Assembly (NCBI GenBank): GCA_021324395.1
Contig: JAJPJG010000030.1
Location: 40,641-104,640, forward strand
Direction: 5' to 3'
DNA: 64,000 bases
Source: Spartobacteria bacterium
GTDB taxonomy: Bacteria > Verrucomicrobiota > Verrucomicrobiia > Chthoniobacterales > Chthoniobacteraceae
Shown here: one piece after another, positions 594-64,000 of the stretch
Layout of the letters: every line of letters starts with the position of its first letter
Numbering within the stretch: the stretch's first letter is position 1
Position numbers and translations under genes: made by a program
The notes under the pieces: generated by a model
What the model was told of the DNA's origin: nothing
What the model saw: the letters and a program-made list of their open reading frames with translations, nothing else
Databases searched by the model: none

Positions 594-614
594 GCCGGTA
601 AATCATTTACCGGC
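594..614. promoter_or_regulatory. Perfect 21-bp palindrome at the array edge
   Basis: Two perfect 10-base arms (GCCGGTAAAT and its reverse complement) face each other around a single central C at 604. A one-base centre is too short for an RNA loop, although a shorter-stem hairpin is possible, so a dyad-symmetric protein binding site is the simpler reading. It overlaps the first unit of the 21-bp array and lies about 165 bases upstream of the leftward gene at 428. Confidence 0.6.
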
Positions 615-855
615 ATCAGAAAGCAATTCTGAACCGCCATCAAGTCGTTTTGGAAGCCCATCAAGTCATTCTACAGGCGCGTCAGGTCATTCTGGAACCG
701 CACCAAGCCATTCTACGACCGCATCAGGTCATTCACGAACCGCAAAAAGCCGTTCTGCGCCCGCGTCAGGTCATTTCGAAAGCTCGCGAAACCATTTACA
801 AGCCTCGTCCAGTCAAATCGCAGCCGCTTGAATCCGAATTTATCGCGCGTGATAA
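604..855. repeat. Array 1: about 12 degenerate 21-bp units
   Basis: A CATTCT-like anchor recurs at 604, 625, 646, 667, 688, 709, 730, 751, 772, 793, 814 and 835, always exactly 21 bases apart. The best-kept units (646-771) share the anchor and a CGCRTCAGGT-like stretch before the next anchor, while the 4-5 bases after each anchor vary freely. The outer units are more worn. No indel breaks the phase. Twenty-one bases equal two helical turns or seven codons. The array lies upstream of the leftward gene at 428. It is not a CRISPR: there is no long invariant repeat and no unique spacer of CRISPR length. Confidence 0.8.
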
Positions 856-6800: not shown

Positions 6801-9800
6801 GTCCCGGCAGCACTTACTGGCACGATCACGCTGGCCAGCGGGACGACGGGCATTGGCAGCCAGTTTGGTGATACTATCACGTTGAACGGAAGCATTACCG
6901 GCGCCGGCGCTCTCAAGCAGTTGAACGCGAATACCATCATTTCAGGCAGCAACGATTATTCCGGCGGAACAACCATCACCGCTAAAATCCTGACCGCAAA
7001 CAGCAGCACCGCGCTCGGTTCCGGAGCGGTCAGCATCAGCGCTGCTTCCGGTGCGCAGCTCGCTCTGGGCAGCAATGTCAATGTCGCCAATGCGCTAGCC
7101 ATTAATGGTGGCGGTGTCTCCGGCCAGGGTGCGCTTTATGTGCCGACGGGCGATGCCACCTACAATGGTGCGATCAATATCACTGGTGCGCCAAATGCAG
7201 GCGGCCACTTTGCCTCCGGCACCGGCATCTTAACGGTTTCCGGGCCGGTTACCTCCTCGGTCGATGTAACGGTTCGCGCCGGCACAGTGTTGTTTTCAAA
7301 TACCGGCAGCAGCTATAGCACACTTAGCCTTCTGGGAGGCACAACGAAAGTAGGTGCGACCAATGCCCTGCCGGTCGGTGCAACGGCTAATATCGGCACG
7401 GCGACTTCGGAGCAAAATGCCGTGCTGGATCTGAACGGCTTTAATCAGACGCTCGCCGGAATTACCAAAGGCGCTCAGACTGCAAAGATCATTAACAATG
7501 GCTTGTCCGATGCGACTCTAACCACAACGGGCAACTCCACCTACAACGGATGGTTGCAGGATGGTGCGACGAACAAGCTGGCGCTTACGGTTAACAGCGG
7601 TTCTCTCACTCTCGGCGGCACGAGCACCTTTACCGGAGACGTGAATGTCAACGGCGGAACTTTGCTCGTGAATTTCAGCAACAATTTTGCCAACCCGACT
7701 AGCAGCGCCTTGGGTAATCCACAGGCGGTCCGCAATATCAATGTGAACAACGGTGGCACGTTGAATTTCGTGCAGGGAGATACTCTCGGAGGAGCAACTA
7801 CGAACGTCGCTTCTACATTGGTAATCAATCAAGGCGGCACGGTGACTAATACAGGTGGTAACTTTACCACGCTGGGTGCTGTGCAGCTTAATGGCGGCAC
7901 ATTGACCGGCGTAGGTGGGGCAATCCCGAATTACCAGATGTATGCCTTGCGCGGTGATGTGACGGTCGGCGGCACTACCGCATCCACTATCTCCGGCAGT
8001 GGCGCGAACGCGGGTTATCATCTTAATACCAATACCACCTTCAACATTGCCGATGTGACAGGCAATTCGAATTCCGATTTGAATGTCTCTGGTATTTTGG
8101 TTGACCAAACCGGCAGTCAGGATAGCGCAGCAGGCGGCTTTACTAAGAACGGAGCCGGCACAATGACCCTCACGGGCAACAGCACCTATACAGGCGTGAC
8201 AACGATCAGCAACGGCGTATTGCAACTTGGAGACGGGACGAATGGCAACGATGGCACGATCGTCAGCACCGGTGGAGTGGTGGATAATAGCTCGCTGGTC
8301 TACAACCGGTTTGGCACAGTGACTTCGAGCTATGCTATTAGCGGCGGGGGTGCCGTGACAAAAATCGGCGCAGGCACGCAAATCCTAAGTGGTTCGAATA
8401 ACTATACTGGTGCTACCAATATCAACGTTGGGACGCTCGGGTTCTCGACTTTGCAGTCAAGCATTGGTGATGTCGTGGTTGCCAGTAACGCCATCTTAAG
8501 CGTGAAGCAGGCGATTGCGAATCAGACACTGCTGTCGACTAACAGTCTTACTCTCGGCAATTCTACACTAACATTCGATTTCAATAATCTAGACTCGAGC
8601 GCCGCGTTGATGTCAACCAATGGACTTACCCTCAATGGCACGACTGGTTTCAGCATGCAAAATGGCGCGCTGCTCTCCACGGGCACACACCAGTTGTTAA
8701 CCTATGCCTCGTTCGGAGGAGGCGGCTCGTTGCTGACGGGGACCACCTATCATCTCACCGCGCGGAACACCGGACAGGTCATTAATGATACCAACAATAG
8801 CGCGTTGAGCCTTGTAGTGATCGCCAATACCCCGATCTGGACAGGTTCCAACGGTAGCGCGTGGGACATCGAAACGACGCAAAACTGGAAGAGCGCCGGC
8901 CTCGCGACGACTTACTTCCAGACCGCCACAAGCGGAACCGATAGCGTTATTTTCGATGACACTGCGTCGAACACGAACGTGGACCTCGCGATGAATGTTG
9001 CGCCGCTCGGTGTGTTGGTGGATAACTCGACAAAGAGCTATCTTATTAGTGGCACCGGCGGCTTTGGTATTGGGGGCTCCACCTCACTCGTCAAGCAAGG
9101 CAGCAATACTCTCACCCTCACAGGTAGCAATAGCTATACCGGCGGGACGACGATCAAGGCCGGAACCATTGCAATTAACAACGCGAATAGCTTGGGCGAT
9201 AGCTCTGGCGCGGTCACGATCAACAACGGCGCTAAACTTGAAGCGCTTAATGCGATTACGACTTCACGCAGCTTCCTGCTCACCGGCACCGGCACGATTC
9301 AGACCGATAGCGACACCTATGAAGTCGACGGTGTCGTTGGTAATGGCCTCTCCACCGGTAGCCTGACGAAAACTGGCAACGGCACCTTGCGGCTGACGGC
9401 GGCGAATACCTTTACCGGAGATATCAATATCAATGGCGGAACACTGCTCGCAGATCGCACCAACAATGCAGTCAATCCTACAACCAGCGCATTGGGTAAT
9501 TCGCAATCCACTCGTAATATCATTGTGAACAATGGAGGCACGCTGAATTTCGTGCAGGGAGATACACTCGGCGGTGCGACTTCCACGGTAGTTTCGACAT
9601 TGGTCATAAATCCGGGTGGCACGGTAACGAATGCCGGCGGCAACTTCACGACGCTCGGTCCTGTTCAGCTGAATGGCGGCACGCTGACTGGTGTCGGCGG
9701 CGCAAATAGCAGCTATCAGATGTATTCCCTGCGCGGAGATGTGACGGTAGGCGGCACGTCGGCTTCCACCATTTCCGGCAGCGGCTCGAATGCCGGGTAT

Positions 9801-61028: not shown

Positions 61029-61478
61029 ATGAAACGGCAGGCACTTATTCTTGCTCGAAAATATCTACTTTCTTCAAAGTGTAGCGGAGCAGAATTTGGG
61101 GCCGCCCTAAACGCTGTGCTTACGTTTGCTCGCGTGCGCGCTTGGCGGGTCGATGTCACCGCATGTTACGACCGACTCTCGATCCGCAATCAACGCCGTC
61201 ATCGAAGTATGATGCTGGTATTTAGCACTCTTGCTGGTGACTACCAATATGCTCGGCAACTTATTCCCAAGCGGGTGACTAGCTATGTTGATCTCGTTCT
61301 GGCAATAGACACCTTGCTCAATCAGGATGATCTTCAAGCTGCCGAACCGCTGATAAGGCTCTGCTTTAAGGCGCTGTTAAGCCATGATAGCGAATACCTG
61401 CTAACTAATATGGCCGACTGTCTCTCTCGCTATTTTTCAATGCTGCACGAACACCTTAGCAAGACCGAGCACCTTTGA
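61029..61478 (+). CDS. Unknown helical protein, first gene of island
   Basis: About 149 residues if started at ATG 61029 (a GTG-started frame from 60948 is possible). It is predicted all-helical (ALILARKYLL, FGAALNAVLTFARV, YVDLVLAIDTLLNQDDLQAAEPLIRLCFKALL). I do not recognise a family. An RX4H motif (RNQRRH) occurs, which is found in HEPN ribonucleases but is too short to be evidence. The gene is poorer in GC than its surroundings and overlaps the next gene by four bases, so the three genes probably form one unit. Confidence 0.6.
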   Translation: MKRQALILARKYLLSSKCSGAEFGAALNAVLTFARVRAWRVDVTACYDRLSIRNQRRHRSMMLVFSTLAGDYQYARQLIPKRVTSYVDLVLAIDTLLNQDDLQAAEPLIRLCFKALLSHDSEYLLTNMADCLSRYFSMLHEHLSKTEHL

Positions 61479-62236
61479 TAAGGCCTGTTATGAGCTGCCG
61501 AAGTTCTTCCACATCGCATTCGTCAAGTAAGAGCGAACAGAATTTTCCTGCCCCTGCTAGTCTGAGTGCTTTGAAGAAGCTTACTCGCTCGTTGTGTGAG
61601 AAGCCGGTATATGCCTATATCGTTACCACGATCAAAACGCATCCAAACTTCCAGCTTCAACAAGAAGGTAGCGCTCCTAATTTTGATGGAGGACGCATCA
61701 CCCTTTGCACTTGCAAGCACAAGGACCGAGCCACATTTTGCCCAGTAAAGAAGCAAAAAGATCCTTGGCAAAATGTCTGGGTTGCAGGTCTTACCAGCAA
61801 GAAAGGCAATCGTCCGCGCAGTCTTGTCTACCTAATGTGTGTAGAGCGTTCCTTCTCGACTCAGCGAGAGCTTTGGGAAGAGCTGAATCCCAAATGTCGG
61901 CGGGCAAAGTCCGCTTCTAAATTCAAACATGGCGATCTATACGAGCCGAAAGCATCGGCGAAAAATGCCCTACATAACCCGGCTGACTATTGTTCTCCTA
62001 TCCGTGGGCATTCGCATTCCTCGAAGGAAGAGCCGAATAAATGGCATGAAGACATCAAGCGTTGGGGTAAACATTCCAAGCCACATCCTCTCCTGCTTGG
62101 TCAGATGTCACAGAGTTATCGCTGGACGAAAGTGAAGATAATTTTAAAGGAGAATGCAATCGGAACTACAGCACATCATAAGATGTATAAATCGCTCAAC
62201 GAGTTCATCGAGAACTTACAGGAGTTCAACCCTTGA
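61475..62236 (+). CDS. Nmad2-like protein (nucleotide-modification-associated), tentative
   Basis: Up to 253 residues. The TTG at 61475 overlaps the previous TGA (TTGA), as does the next gene; ATG 61490 is an alternative. After a polar start, residues 44-130 contain VYAYIVTTIKTHPNFQ, GGRITLCTCKHKDRATFC, NVWVAGLTSKKGNRPRSLVYLMCVERSF, a pattern that resembles the Nmad2 domain (Iyer and Aravind's nucleotide-modification-associated set). The rest is Lys/His-rich (AKNALHNPADYCSPIRGHSH). The family match is from memory and should be tested with an HMM search. Its partner is an Nmad3-like gene, in the same short operon. Confidence 0.55.
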   Translation: MIRPVMSCRSSSTSHSSSKSEQNFPAPASLSALKKLTRSLCEKPVYAYIVTTIKTHPNFQLQQEGSAPNFDGGRITLCTCKHKDRATFCPVKKQKDPWQNVWVAGLTSKKGNRPRSLVYLMCVERSFSTQRELWEELNPKCRRAKSASKFKHGDLYEPKASAKNALHNPADYCSPIRGHSHSSKEEPNKWHEDIKRWGKHSKPHPLLLGQMSQSYRWTKVKIILKENAIGTTAHHKMYKSLNEFIENLQEFNP

Positions 62237-62946
62237 ACGTAGTTCTGCTGCGCGTTGGTATTGACACCGGCTGCGGCGGTATCCATAGCCCGCTCTTTGC
62301 CAATGGAACATTTGAGTTTATACCGATACCAGACTCGCGTGGGTGGGATGAGCGCACTTACGGCAATACCGTCGGGAGAAAACGCCGGGCTCTTAGCGAA
62401 TATTTTCCAAAGCGTTATCAAGAGCGGATGGCCTGCTCGGCAATGCACGTTGATCCGGAGTTTGAAACGTTCACTTACGGCGATCCGACTCCAACTAAGC
62501 GAGGACTCACTAAGATGAAGCCCGGTGACATGCTGGTCTTCTACGCAGGAATGCAAGGATGGGATCACGAACGGTTGCCCGCTCTTTACATTGCAGGTTT
62601 TTTTCGGGTGAAGCTCGCCGGTTTTTCGACGGCCTTTTCTAGTGAACAATTGCGGCAGGAATTTCAACACAATTACCATGTCCGACATCCAAAAGTCTTT
62701 GCTGAGCAACGAGAAAAACTGGTGTTAATTAAGGGAGGAAAGGGCAGCCGCTTGCTACGGAAAGCTCAGTTACTTGGGGAAACAGTTCGTCGCAAGGACG
62801 GGTCTTCATGGCAGATCATTACACCAAGAATGGAAAAAGTATTTGGTAGATTTGGCGGCATCGGCTCACTCCAACGCAGCACACCGCGATGGGTAGAAGA
62901 TAGGCTGGTAAGCAAGGCCGAAAAATTTCTCGAATCTCTCGATTGA
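62233..62946 (+). CDS. Nmad3-like protein (nucleotide-modification-associated), tentative
   Basis: A 237-residue product that starts at TTG in a TTGA overlap with the previous gene. Features resemble Nmad3: the opening VVLLRVGIDTGCGGIHSPLF, then FEFIPIPDS, later HVDPEFETFTYGDPTPTKRG, KPGDMLVFYAGMQG and LPALYIAGFFRV. This family was predicted to work in DNA base modification systems; the biochemical role was unknown to me. It is low in GC relative to the rest of the window and ends at a hairpin terminator, right before the array of 21-bp units. Confidence 0.6.
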   Translation: MNVVLLRVGIDTGCGGIHSPLFANGTFEFIPIPDSRGWDERTYGNTVGRKRRALSEYFPKRYQERMACSAMHVDPEFETFTYGDPTPTKRGLTKMKPGDMLVFYAGMQGWDHERLPALYIAGFFRVKLAGFSTAFSSEQLRQEFQHNYHVRHPKVFAEQREKLVLIKGGKGSRLLRKAQLLGETVRRKDGSSWQIITPRMEKVFGRFGGIGSLQRSTPRWVEDRLVSKAEKFLESLD

Positions 62947-62969: not shown

Positions 62970-62994
62970 ACAATGGAAAAAGCTTTCATTGTTT
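62970..62994 (+). terminator. Hairpin terminator of the island
   Basis: ACAATGGAAA (62970-62979) pairs with TTTCATTGT (62984-62992), with one bulged G and a loop of AAGC, then TTAG. It lies 24 bases after the Nmad3-like stop. The T run is short. It also touches an irregular TTTA at 62992, 14 bases before the first regular array unit. Confidence 0.6.
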
Positions 62995-63005
62995 AGAATC
63001 AGGCA

Positions 63006-63445
63006 TTTAGACGGCTGCAGGAGCGATTTAGGCGGGGAATTTTGCGGTTTAGGCGATGGGATTTTCAGTTTAAGCGGTCGCGCGGGGCGTTTAAGCGATG
63101 GCGTTTCGCATTTAAGCGAGGGGTTGTGGTATTTAGGAAGCGCGGGTTTTGGTTTAGGTGAAGGGGTTTCGGGTTTAGGAGATCGCGTGTTGGATTTAGG
63201 CGTGGGTTGGGTGCGTTTAAGCGAGGGGGTGTTTCGTTTTAGCGGAAGATGGTTGGGTTTAGCGGGAGGTGTTGAGGGTTTAGACGGGTCTATTGCGGGT
63301 TTAAGCGAAACGATGCGCGGTTTAGGGGATGGGGTTGGTGGTTAAGAATAGGCGTTCGGGGTTTAAGAATGGGTATTAGCGATTTAGGCGAGGGCGTTTC
63401 GCGTTTAGGCTGAAGCGGGGTTGGTTTAAGATAGCGCGTGTCGCG
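63006..63445. repeat. Array 2: about 21 phased 21-bp units
   Basis: A TTTA(A/G)G anchor recurs at 63006, 63027, 63048 and every 21 bases up to 63321, then (after one 20-base unit lacking a T) at 63362, 63383, 63404 and 63425. The positions after the anchor are mostly GC-rich and vary, with a weak GCGA-GGGGTTTCG tendency. The unit at 63237 has TTTTAG. Only one single-base deletion occurs in 20 steps, although unit sequences differ widely. It is not a CRISPR, and ordinary copying cannot explain phase kept without sequence kept. It ends about 60 bases before the alpha-mannosidase-like start. Confidence 0.9.
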
Positions 63446-63505: not shown

Positions 63506-64000
63506 ATGCACAAACATCCGCGCATCACCGAAACGCGAATCGCCCGCACGCTCGATCGCATCCACGGGCAGATTTTTAGACAGACCGCGCCGCTGCGTCT
63601 GGAGGCGTTCGAGGTCGGCGGCGAACCGATTCCGGCGGAACAGGCGTTCGGGCAAACCTTCCAGCCGTTCACCGTCGGGCAAAGCTGGGGTGCGGCTTGG
63701 GGGACGACGTGGTTTCGCGTTTCGGGGAAAATTCCGGCGGAGTGGAACGGCCGCGAAGTCATGGCGCTGATCGACCTGGGCGGGCTGCCGAATTTGTCCG
63801 AAGGCTTCACATGCGAAGGTCTCGTCTGGCAGGAGGGTGTGCCGACGCGTGCGATCAATGTGAATCGCGCCGATGTGCCGCTGGCGAAAAGCGCGCGCGG
63901 CGGGGAGGAGTTTCTGTTTTACGTGGAAGCGGCGGCGAATCCGAAAGCGCCGGAGCGGGGTTTCAGCAATCTTCCGCAACGCGGTGACACGACGCCGCTC
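63506..64000 (+). CDS. GH38 alpha-mannosidase-like, N-terminal part
   Basis: An open frame from ATG 63506 runs off the right edge (165 codons). The visible part fits the N-terminal beta-sandwich of bacterial GH38 alpha-mannosidases: IARTLDRIHGQIF, GQSWGAAWGTTWFRVSGKIP, VMALIDLGGLPNLSEG and EGLVWQEGVPTRAINV. The catalytic domain lies outside. It would cut alpha-mannosides in the cytoplasm (no signal peptide). The 21-bp array ends about 60 bases before its start and may control it. The call rests on the N-terminal domain only. Confidence 0.75.
   Translation, partial: MHKHPRITETRIARTLDRIHGQIFRQTAPLRLEAFEVGGEPIPAEQAFGQTFQPFTVGQSWGAAWGTTWFRVSGKIPAEWNGREVMALIDLGGLPNLSEGFTCEGLVWQEGVPTRAINVNRADVPLAKSARGGEEFLFYVEAAANPKAPERGFSNLPQRGDTTPL

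Follow-up and report, generated by a model that had tools for sequence, protein, structure and literature searches.

A degenerate, phased array of 21-bp units in a Spartobacteria genome and its probable place in a lineage-restricted class of non-coding satellites

The window considered here is a stretch of 64,000 nucleotides from the genome of a Spartobacteria bacterium (genome G000 in what follows). Close to its downstream end, in the gap between two genes of the same orientation, lies a run of 21-bp units that keep their phase while differing in sequence (Table 1). The two genes upstream of the array, Nmad2-like and Nmad3, are adjacent to one another, have a G+C content below that of the downstream DNA and are perhaps an acquired DNA-modification locus. 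Relatives of the mannosidase-like gene on the other side are confined to one genus (g8 of the nine, g1 to g9, that were sampled; g1 is represented by G000 alone), and their loci are without the array. No orthologue of the array was found in 39 relatives.

Table 1. Positions of the array, its neighbours and other features (window coordinates unless a locus is named)
Feature	Position	Strand	Remarks
21-bp phased array under study	63006..63445	+	consensus about TTTARGCGnnGGnGTTTnGnG in 21 units; phase slips once, by 1 base, between 63321 and 63341
First-unit anchor, TTTAGA	63006..63011	+	similar TTTARG-like anchors each 21 bases up to 63425
Open frame over the array (Leu-heptad frame)	62989..63345	+	judged non-coding
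Start of downstream gene, alpha-mannosidase-like protein (Ams1-like first domain)	63506..64000	+	start codon ~60 bp past the array
Upstream gene, Nmad3 (nucleotide modification associated domain 3)	62233..62946	+	
Upstream gene, weak Nmad2 similarity	61475..62236	+	under the Pfam cut-off
Second phased 21-bp array in the window	595..825	+	11 units with a consensus of their own, about AAGTCATTCT..AACCGCATC; neighbouring genes divergent
Palindromic MITE-like elements	locus L232, about 8340-8620 and 9465-9590		

Anchors are found at 63006+21k as far as 63321 (16 positions) and then at 63341, 63362, 63383, 63404 and 63425. The 20-base step from 63321 to 63341 is the sole slip of phase, and bears out the single one-base deletion that an initial annotation of this DNA had recorded. 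The count of 21 units given there also stands, but not the start at 62992: the TTTAGA at that position is out of phase by 7, and the phased array begins at 63006. TTTA[AG]G is exact in 16 of the 21 units and one mismatch off in each of the other five (by column: T 20/21, T 21/21, T 21/21, A 20/21, purine 21/21, G 18/21); the 15 non-anchor columns are mostly loose. Identity at lag 21 is 0.566, against 0.302 +/- 0.022 (maximum 0.381) in 1000 dinucleotide shuffles, and the longest chain of exact anchors is 10, against at most 2 in shuffles. The phase is thus real, and the equal periodicity in shuffled sequence that would have reduced it to an accident was never reached. TRF covers only a fragment of the array, 63023-63077. 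The TTTARG anchors do not serve as a defining feature, since the tandem repeats (of 7 and 21 bp) that a 4-anchor scan of 85k genomes retrieved were for the most part unrelated. A CRISPR array does not fit a conserved core of ~6 bp per 21-bp period, loose columns that are not unique spacers, and an Nmad3 and an alpha-mannosidase-like gene as neighbours.

The array had been presented as a singular element; it is one among many 21-bp arrays in its genome. The second array in the window was overlooked at first reading, as were many further ones in G000. (Shortly after the end of this second array there are repeats of a short unit, gatttgcgtgggcgttgtatacggaaaatacaaagtgagg, at 915-1035.) Scanning 751 kb of G000, the window included, with no period assumed (about one-fifth of the genome, chiefly contigs C17 and C26 in full and, of other contigs, the first 20 kb) yielded 32 arrays, 20 of them with period 21, three each with periods 15 and 18, and six other periods once each; the density of 21-bp arrays is ~27 per Mb. 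Among the 21 that score above 8.5, the period is exactly 21 in 19; the remaining two strong arrays, with periods of 22 and 24, count against a strict rule of 21. A triplet-shuffle control gave four weak chance hits, none at 21. TRF, used independently and counting arrays no shorter than 80 bp and with three copies or more, reports units of 21, 42 or 63 for 8 of 9 G000 arrays. With 21 regular units here and 8-34 in the others, these arrays come under the definition of satellites and VNTRs, which asks for four or more internally regular tandem units with lengths of 10-200 bp.

In the pooled intergenic arrays of G000, the identity signal at lag 42 equals that at lag 21 in strength (z 42.7 vs 42.0), so that phase does not decay along them. 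In the arrays of relatives, second neighbours are even more alike than first neighbours (0.712 vs 0.663), which amounts to a 42-bp superperiod. Near-perfect arrays already have periods of 21 or 42 (L162, L234, L235, L236, L239, L232, L018 and an array in the alaS gene of relative G027), several of these having been located through their similarity to another 21-bp array. Age is judged here from divergence only, and young arrays are undercounted because perfect arrays break assemblies; those at L162 and L156 lie at contig ends. An origin from heptamers was considered and rejected: the A+T content within the unit has a 7-bp harmonic in 20 G000 arrays (z 6.2) that is absent from relatives, and identity at lag 7 is not raised.

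By a simple, home-made codon-based gene caller, which misses atypical genes such as that for Nmad3, 21 of 22 arrays are intergenic in DNA that is 86% coding. Their positions relative to genes are mixed, and gaps between convergent genes are included. The exception lies within alaS of G000, where a 10-unit array forms an in-frame insert of ~75 residues in a loop that measures 7-10 residues in most relatives. In G027 the same loop of AlaS is occupied by a 21-bp array that is near-perfect (GGASSPT heptads) and unrelated in consensus to that of G000. In the core of the G000 alaS array, Thr and Gly codons are nearly always ACC and GGT, and this near-invariance suggests a constraint on DNA rather than on protein. 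The gene has other insertions among the relatives. In G039 (L204) the loop in question bears an MGMT-like DNA-binding domain (PF01035, E 6e-13), and at a second insertion site the alaS genes of G032 (L207), G029 (L227) and G025 (L230) carry, in frame, a Y1_Tnp (IS200-like/RAYT) transposase domain of ~160 residues (Pfam PF01797, E 1e-5 in the G032 copy). A literature search pairing alaS with a Y1_Tnp transposase domain found no paper.

The array consensuses are mostly unrelated (CTTGGGCAAG, CACC-N8-AAGGTG, TTCGAACG, CCGCC..GGCGG and CATTCCGC among others). Comparing 21 G000 arrays at their best circular shifts brings out only a few related pairs, which make up small families: L151 with L152, L172 with L178, L159 with L341, and the array under study also with L341. 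The last-named is a 21-bp array on another contig, between a tRNA-Arg gene and a reading frame that, judged by eye, resembles bL35. What the arrays do share is a clustering of their conserved columns in a contiguous core (z 3.4, p 0.001 for the array under study; Stouffer z 7.6 for 22 arrays pooled). The initial annotation had argued that simple ageing of tandem copies would cost them their phase along with their sequence, and the core strengthens the argument: uniform ageing makes columns interchangeable, and clustered conservation contradicts it. The G000 arrays have also accumulated ~1600 substitutions from consensus as against six single-base slips, a disparity, like the constancy of phase itself, that is in part a matter of ascertainment, units out of phase being harder to detect. 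The core is often palindromic, with dyad symmetry at p <= 0.007 in 10 of 20 G000 arrays and dyad z > 2.5 in 20 of 55 arrays; the array under study has no dyad (p 0.38). Constraint on the core is indicative of a contact or structure at the level of DNA, and could in part be mutation bias or homogenisation.

These properties bear on the proposal that the array families are selected, degenerate operators placed two helical turns apart, with a cognate protein polymerising along one face of the DNA in regulation, silencing or chromosome organisation. Contiguous cores, the dyads of 10 of 20 G000 arrays, the recurrence of small families at more than one locus and a phase as well kept at lag 42 as at lag 21 are all what binding platforms would show. 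However, consensuses that differ so widely cannot be explained by any single sequence-specific protein, and many different ones would be needed. Mixed positions relative to genes (convergent pairs included), the placement of one array inside the alaS coding sequence, a 21-bp step already present in near-perfect arrays and the lack of a dyad in the array under study also speak against operators, and we regard this origin as possible but on the doubtful side.

Arrays with a 21-bp period occur in genera g1 (G000), g7 and g9, the last with a single array (L201). In ~450 kb sampled from genera g2-g6 and g8 there were none, except for one 21-bp hit (L187), which in translation looks like a His-rich protein. 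Counting loci that were not picked for similarity only, TRF arrays fall at a multiple of 21 in 10 of 12 cases in carriers and in 0 of 4 elsewhere (periods 10, 17, 33 and 36 in g2-g6 and g8; p about 0.008, calculated by hand); counts that take in loci of relatives picked for their resemblance to an array are biased. At one locus the sister species G033 and G028 have arrays of 609 bp (29 x 21) and 273 bp (13 x 21), respectively, with the same flanking units. The difference is exactly 336 bp, or 16 x 21, and the flank is 96% identical, so that unit number varies between close relatives in this class, as it does in VNTRs. In G028, whole arrays have been copied together with a leader to many loci, and the order of units is retained within the sets L320/L322/L323, L333/L334 and L324/L332.

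Other repeats keep company with these arrays. The leader in G028, GAAAAGGGGCGYTCTTCTCTGTTGGAGG, is conserved at some ten of the loci L320-L338, where it keeps phase with the arrays; its motif, TTCTCTGTTGGAGG, has no convincing counterpart in the sampled DNA of G000. Dispersed palindromic MITE-like elements of ~220-270 bp and ~120 bp, with many matches, flank array loci in G033, G028 and G030, and a short dispersed element built on CAATCCGCAATCC, with many matches in g7 genomes, is found near arrays (L232, about 9623-9655; L233, about 9668-9701). A RAYT transposase, considered as a possible driver, was found in none of the sampled sets.

The arrays might also be ordinary minisatellites made by replication slippage, the excess of 21 being a founder effect of a few arrays copied genome-wide long ago. 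Whole-array dispersal evidently exists, the similarity of units drops only slowly with distance, as it does in duplication, and prokaryotic satellites of many periods are known (PMC6749651). Few pairs among the 21 G000 arrays are related, though, which requires a descent old enough to have erased sequence and yet to have kept the period, and the same alaS loop holds arrays of unrelated consensus in G000 and G027. We consider a founder effect unlikely.

Strong intrinsic bending, one of the roles at first suggested for the array, is not predicted: against column-permuted units its curvature, computed with dinucleotide wedge values, has a z of 0.26, and the 20 pooled G000 arrays show a weak tendency (z 2.2). 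Folding energy is below that of column-permuted units on both strands (pooled z about -6.8), as is to be expected from the dyads, and it is possible that single-stranded DNA hairpins aid amplification. That the arrays function as RNA or single-stranded hairpin arrays, with a short stem-loop in each unit, is improbable. Folding, the dyads in many consensuses and one suggestive compensatory set (L329) would favour it, but pairing double changes at dyad partners number 36 in the pooled arrays, against 33.9 expected from randomly re-paired units (the test was limited to double changes, against artefacts of descent). Moreover, the two strands fold equally well, the array under study folds weakly (z -1.8 and +0.4) and matches no Rfam family, and an RNA role leaves the 21-bp period unexplained.

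A coding role for the array is unlikely, and a heptad repeat of seven codons per unit, already thought the poorer fit in the initial annotation, can be given hardly any credence: the Leu frame is open over 118 codons and one 21-bp array, in alaS, is truly coding, but nearly every unit would need Leu as TTA, a codon that makes up 3.9% of those used for Leu in long frames, the codon log-odds are slightly negative (-0.064 per codon), the one-base deletion shifts the frame, the translation has no Pfam match and almost all of the arrays are intergenic by codon-based calls.

The reading that we prefer, with a probability of about 0.7, is that the array belongs to a class of non-coding satellites (minisatellites) that is restricted in lineage and whose 21-bp period is independent of sequence. 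The class is marked by its near-exclusive period of 21 (with superperiods of 42) whatever the sequence, its almost wholly intergenic placement plus the variable loop of alaS, its whole-unit changes of copy number between sister species, the copying of arrays with their flank in one relative, and its kept core. Growth through tandem duplication, and dispersal, are known of satellites; what is unusual here is the fixed period. Tandem duplication in register at 21 bp would give rise to the arrays, and the period would be fixed by the amplification step rather than by later selection for a particular sequence, since near-perfect, presumably young arrays are already at 21. Twenty-one bp is two turns of the DNA helix. 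The likeliest physical ruler would be those two turns of B-DNA, acting through alignment of an amplification intermediate or a bound protein on one face of the helix, and once an array is born its core may be constrained through a contact or structure of the DNA. An old common ancestry of the arrays, or selection exerted afterwards by proteins that read the phase, is the alternative source of the period.

A more general form of this proposal, that some bacteria amplify local DNA of any sequence in exact steps of two helical turns, between genes and even within an essential gene, with the helix and not the sequence or the reading frame as the ruler, is offered tentatively and at less than even odds. 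Satellite unit lengths outside genes are usually thought arbitrary. One unit length common to many unrelated arrays turns this into a testable question, of whether DNA topology, the footprint of a polymerase or of recombination, or a coating protein sets the step. The satellite class is common in its carriers, restricted in lineage and able to enter an essential gene in frame, and its arrays are degenerate enough that standard tools largely miss them.

Several known systems share some of these features. Iterons of plasmid and phage origins are direct repeats at a spacing of about two helical turns and are bound on one face; each replicon has a single set of them, next to a rep gene and with the whole unit conserved, whereas the arrays described here lie at many chromosomal loci and differ in sequence. 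Rickettsia palindromic elements, like the present arrays, are repetitive DNA found in frame within genes as well as between them, but they are single elements of ~100-150 bp with shared (and palindromic) sequence, not tandem 21-bp arrays.

The initial annotation knew of no described element of this form, and that holds in part: in open-access papers we found nothing on arrays of fixed 21-bp period in this bacterial group, but prokaryotic satellites and the tandem repeats of Borgs have been described (PMC6749651, PMC9879509). In the survey of prokaryotic satellites by Subirana and Messeguer (2019), dispersed non-coding families are rare, transposed families being reported in Leptospira interrogans and Methanocella conradii; repeat lengths vary, and divisibility by three is ascribed mainly to coding (PMC6749651). 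The likeness lies in scattered tandem arrays with many unique sequences and few dispersed families; the intergenic arrays here differ in being nearly all of period 21 and, in many cases, far more degenerate. TAACTGA heptamer direct repeats are likewise abundant and intergenic and in part form long arrays, but they have one fixed sequence and a 7-bp step (PMC4679880), whereas the present arrays vary in sequence on a constant step of 21 bp. Borg tandem repeats arise independently at many loci, with nearly perfect, A-rich units of variable length (one example has units of 18, 20, 21 and 36 nt), and of the intergenic unit lengths no more than 14-38% are divisible by three (PMC9879509). They resemble the present class in their many independent arrays, both genic (in frame) and intergenic, in the variation of unit number and in being mostly missing from related genomes. 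Near-perfect, recent repeats of variable unit length are not what is found here, however: the 21-bp period of the class is fixed, and its units are heavily diverged (~32% from consensus) around a conserved core.
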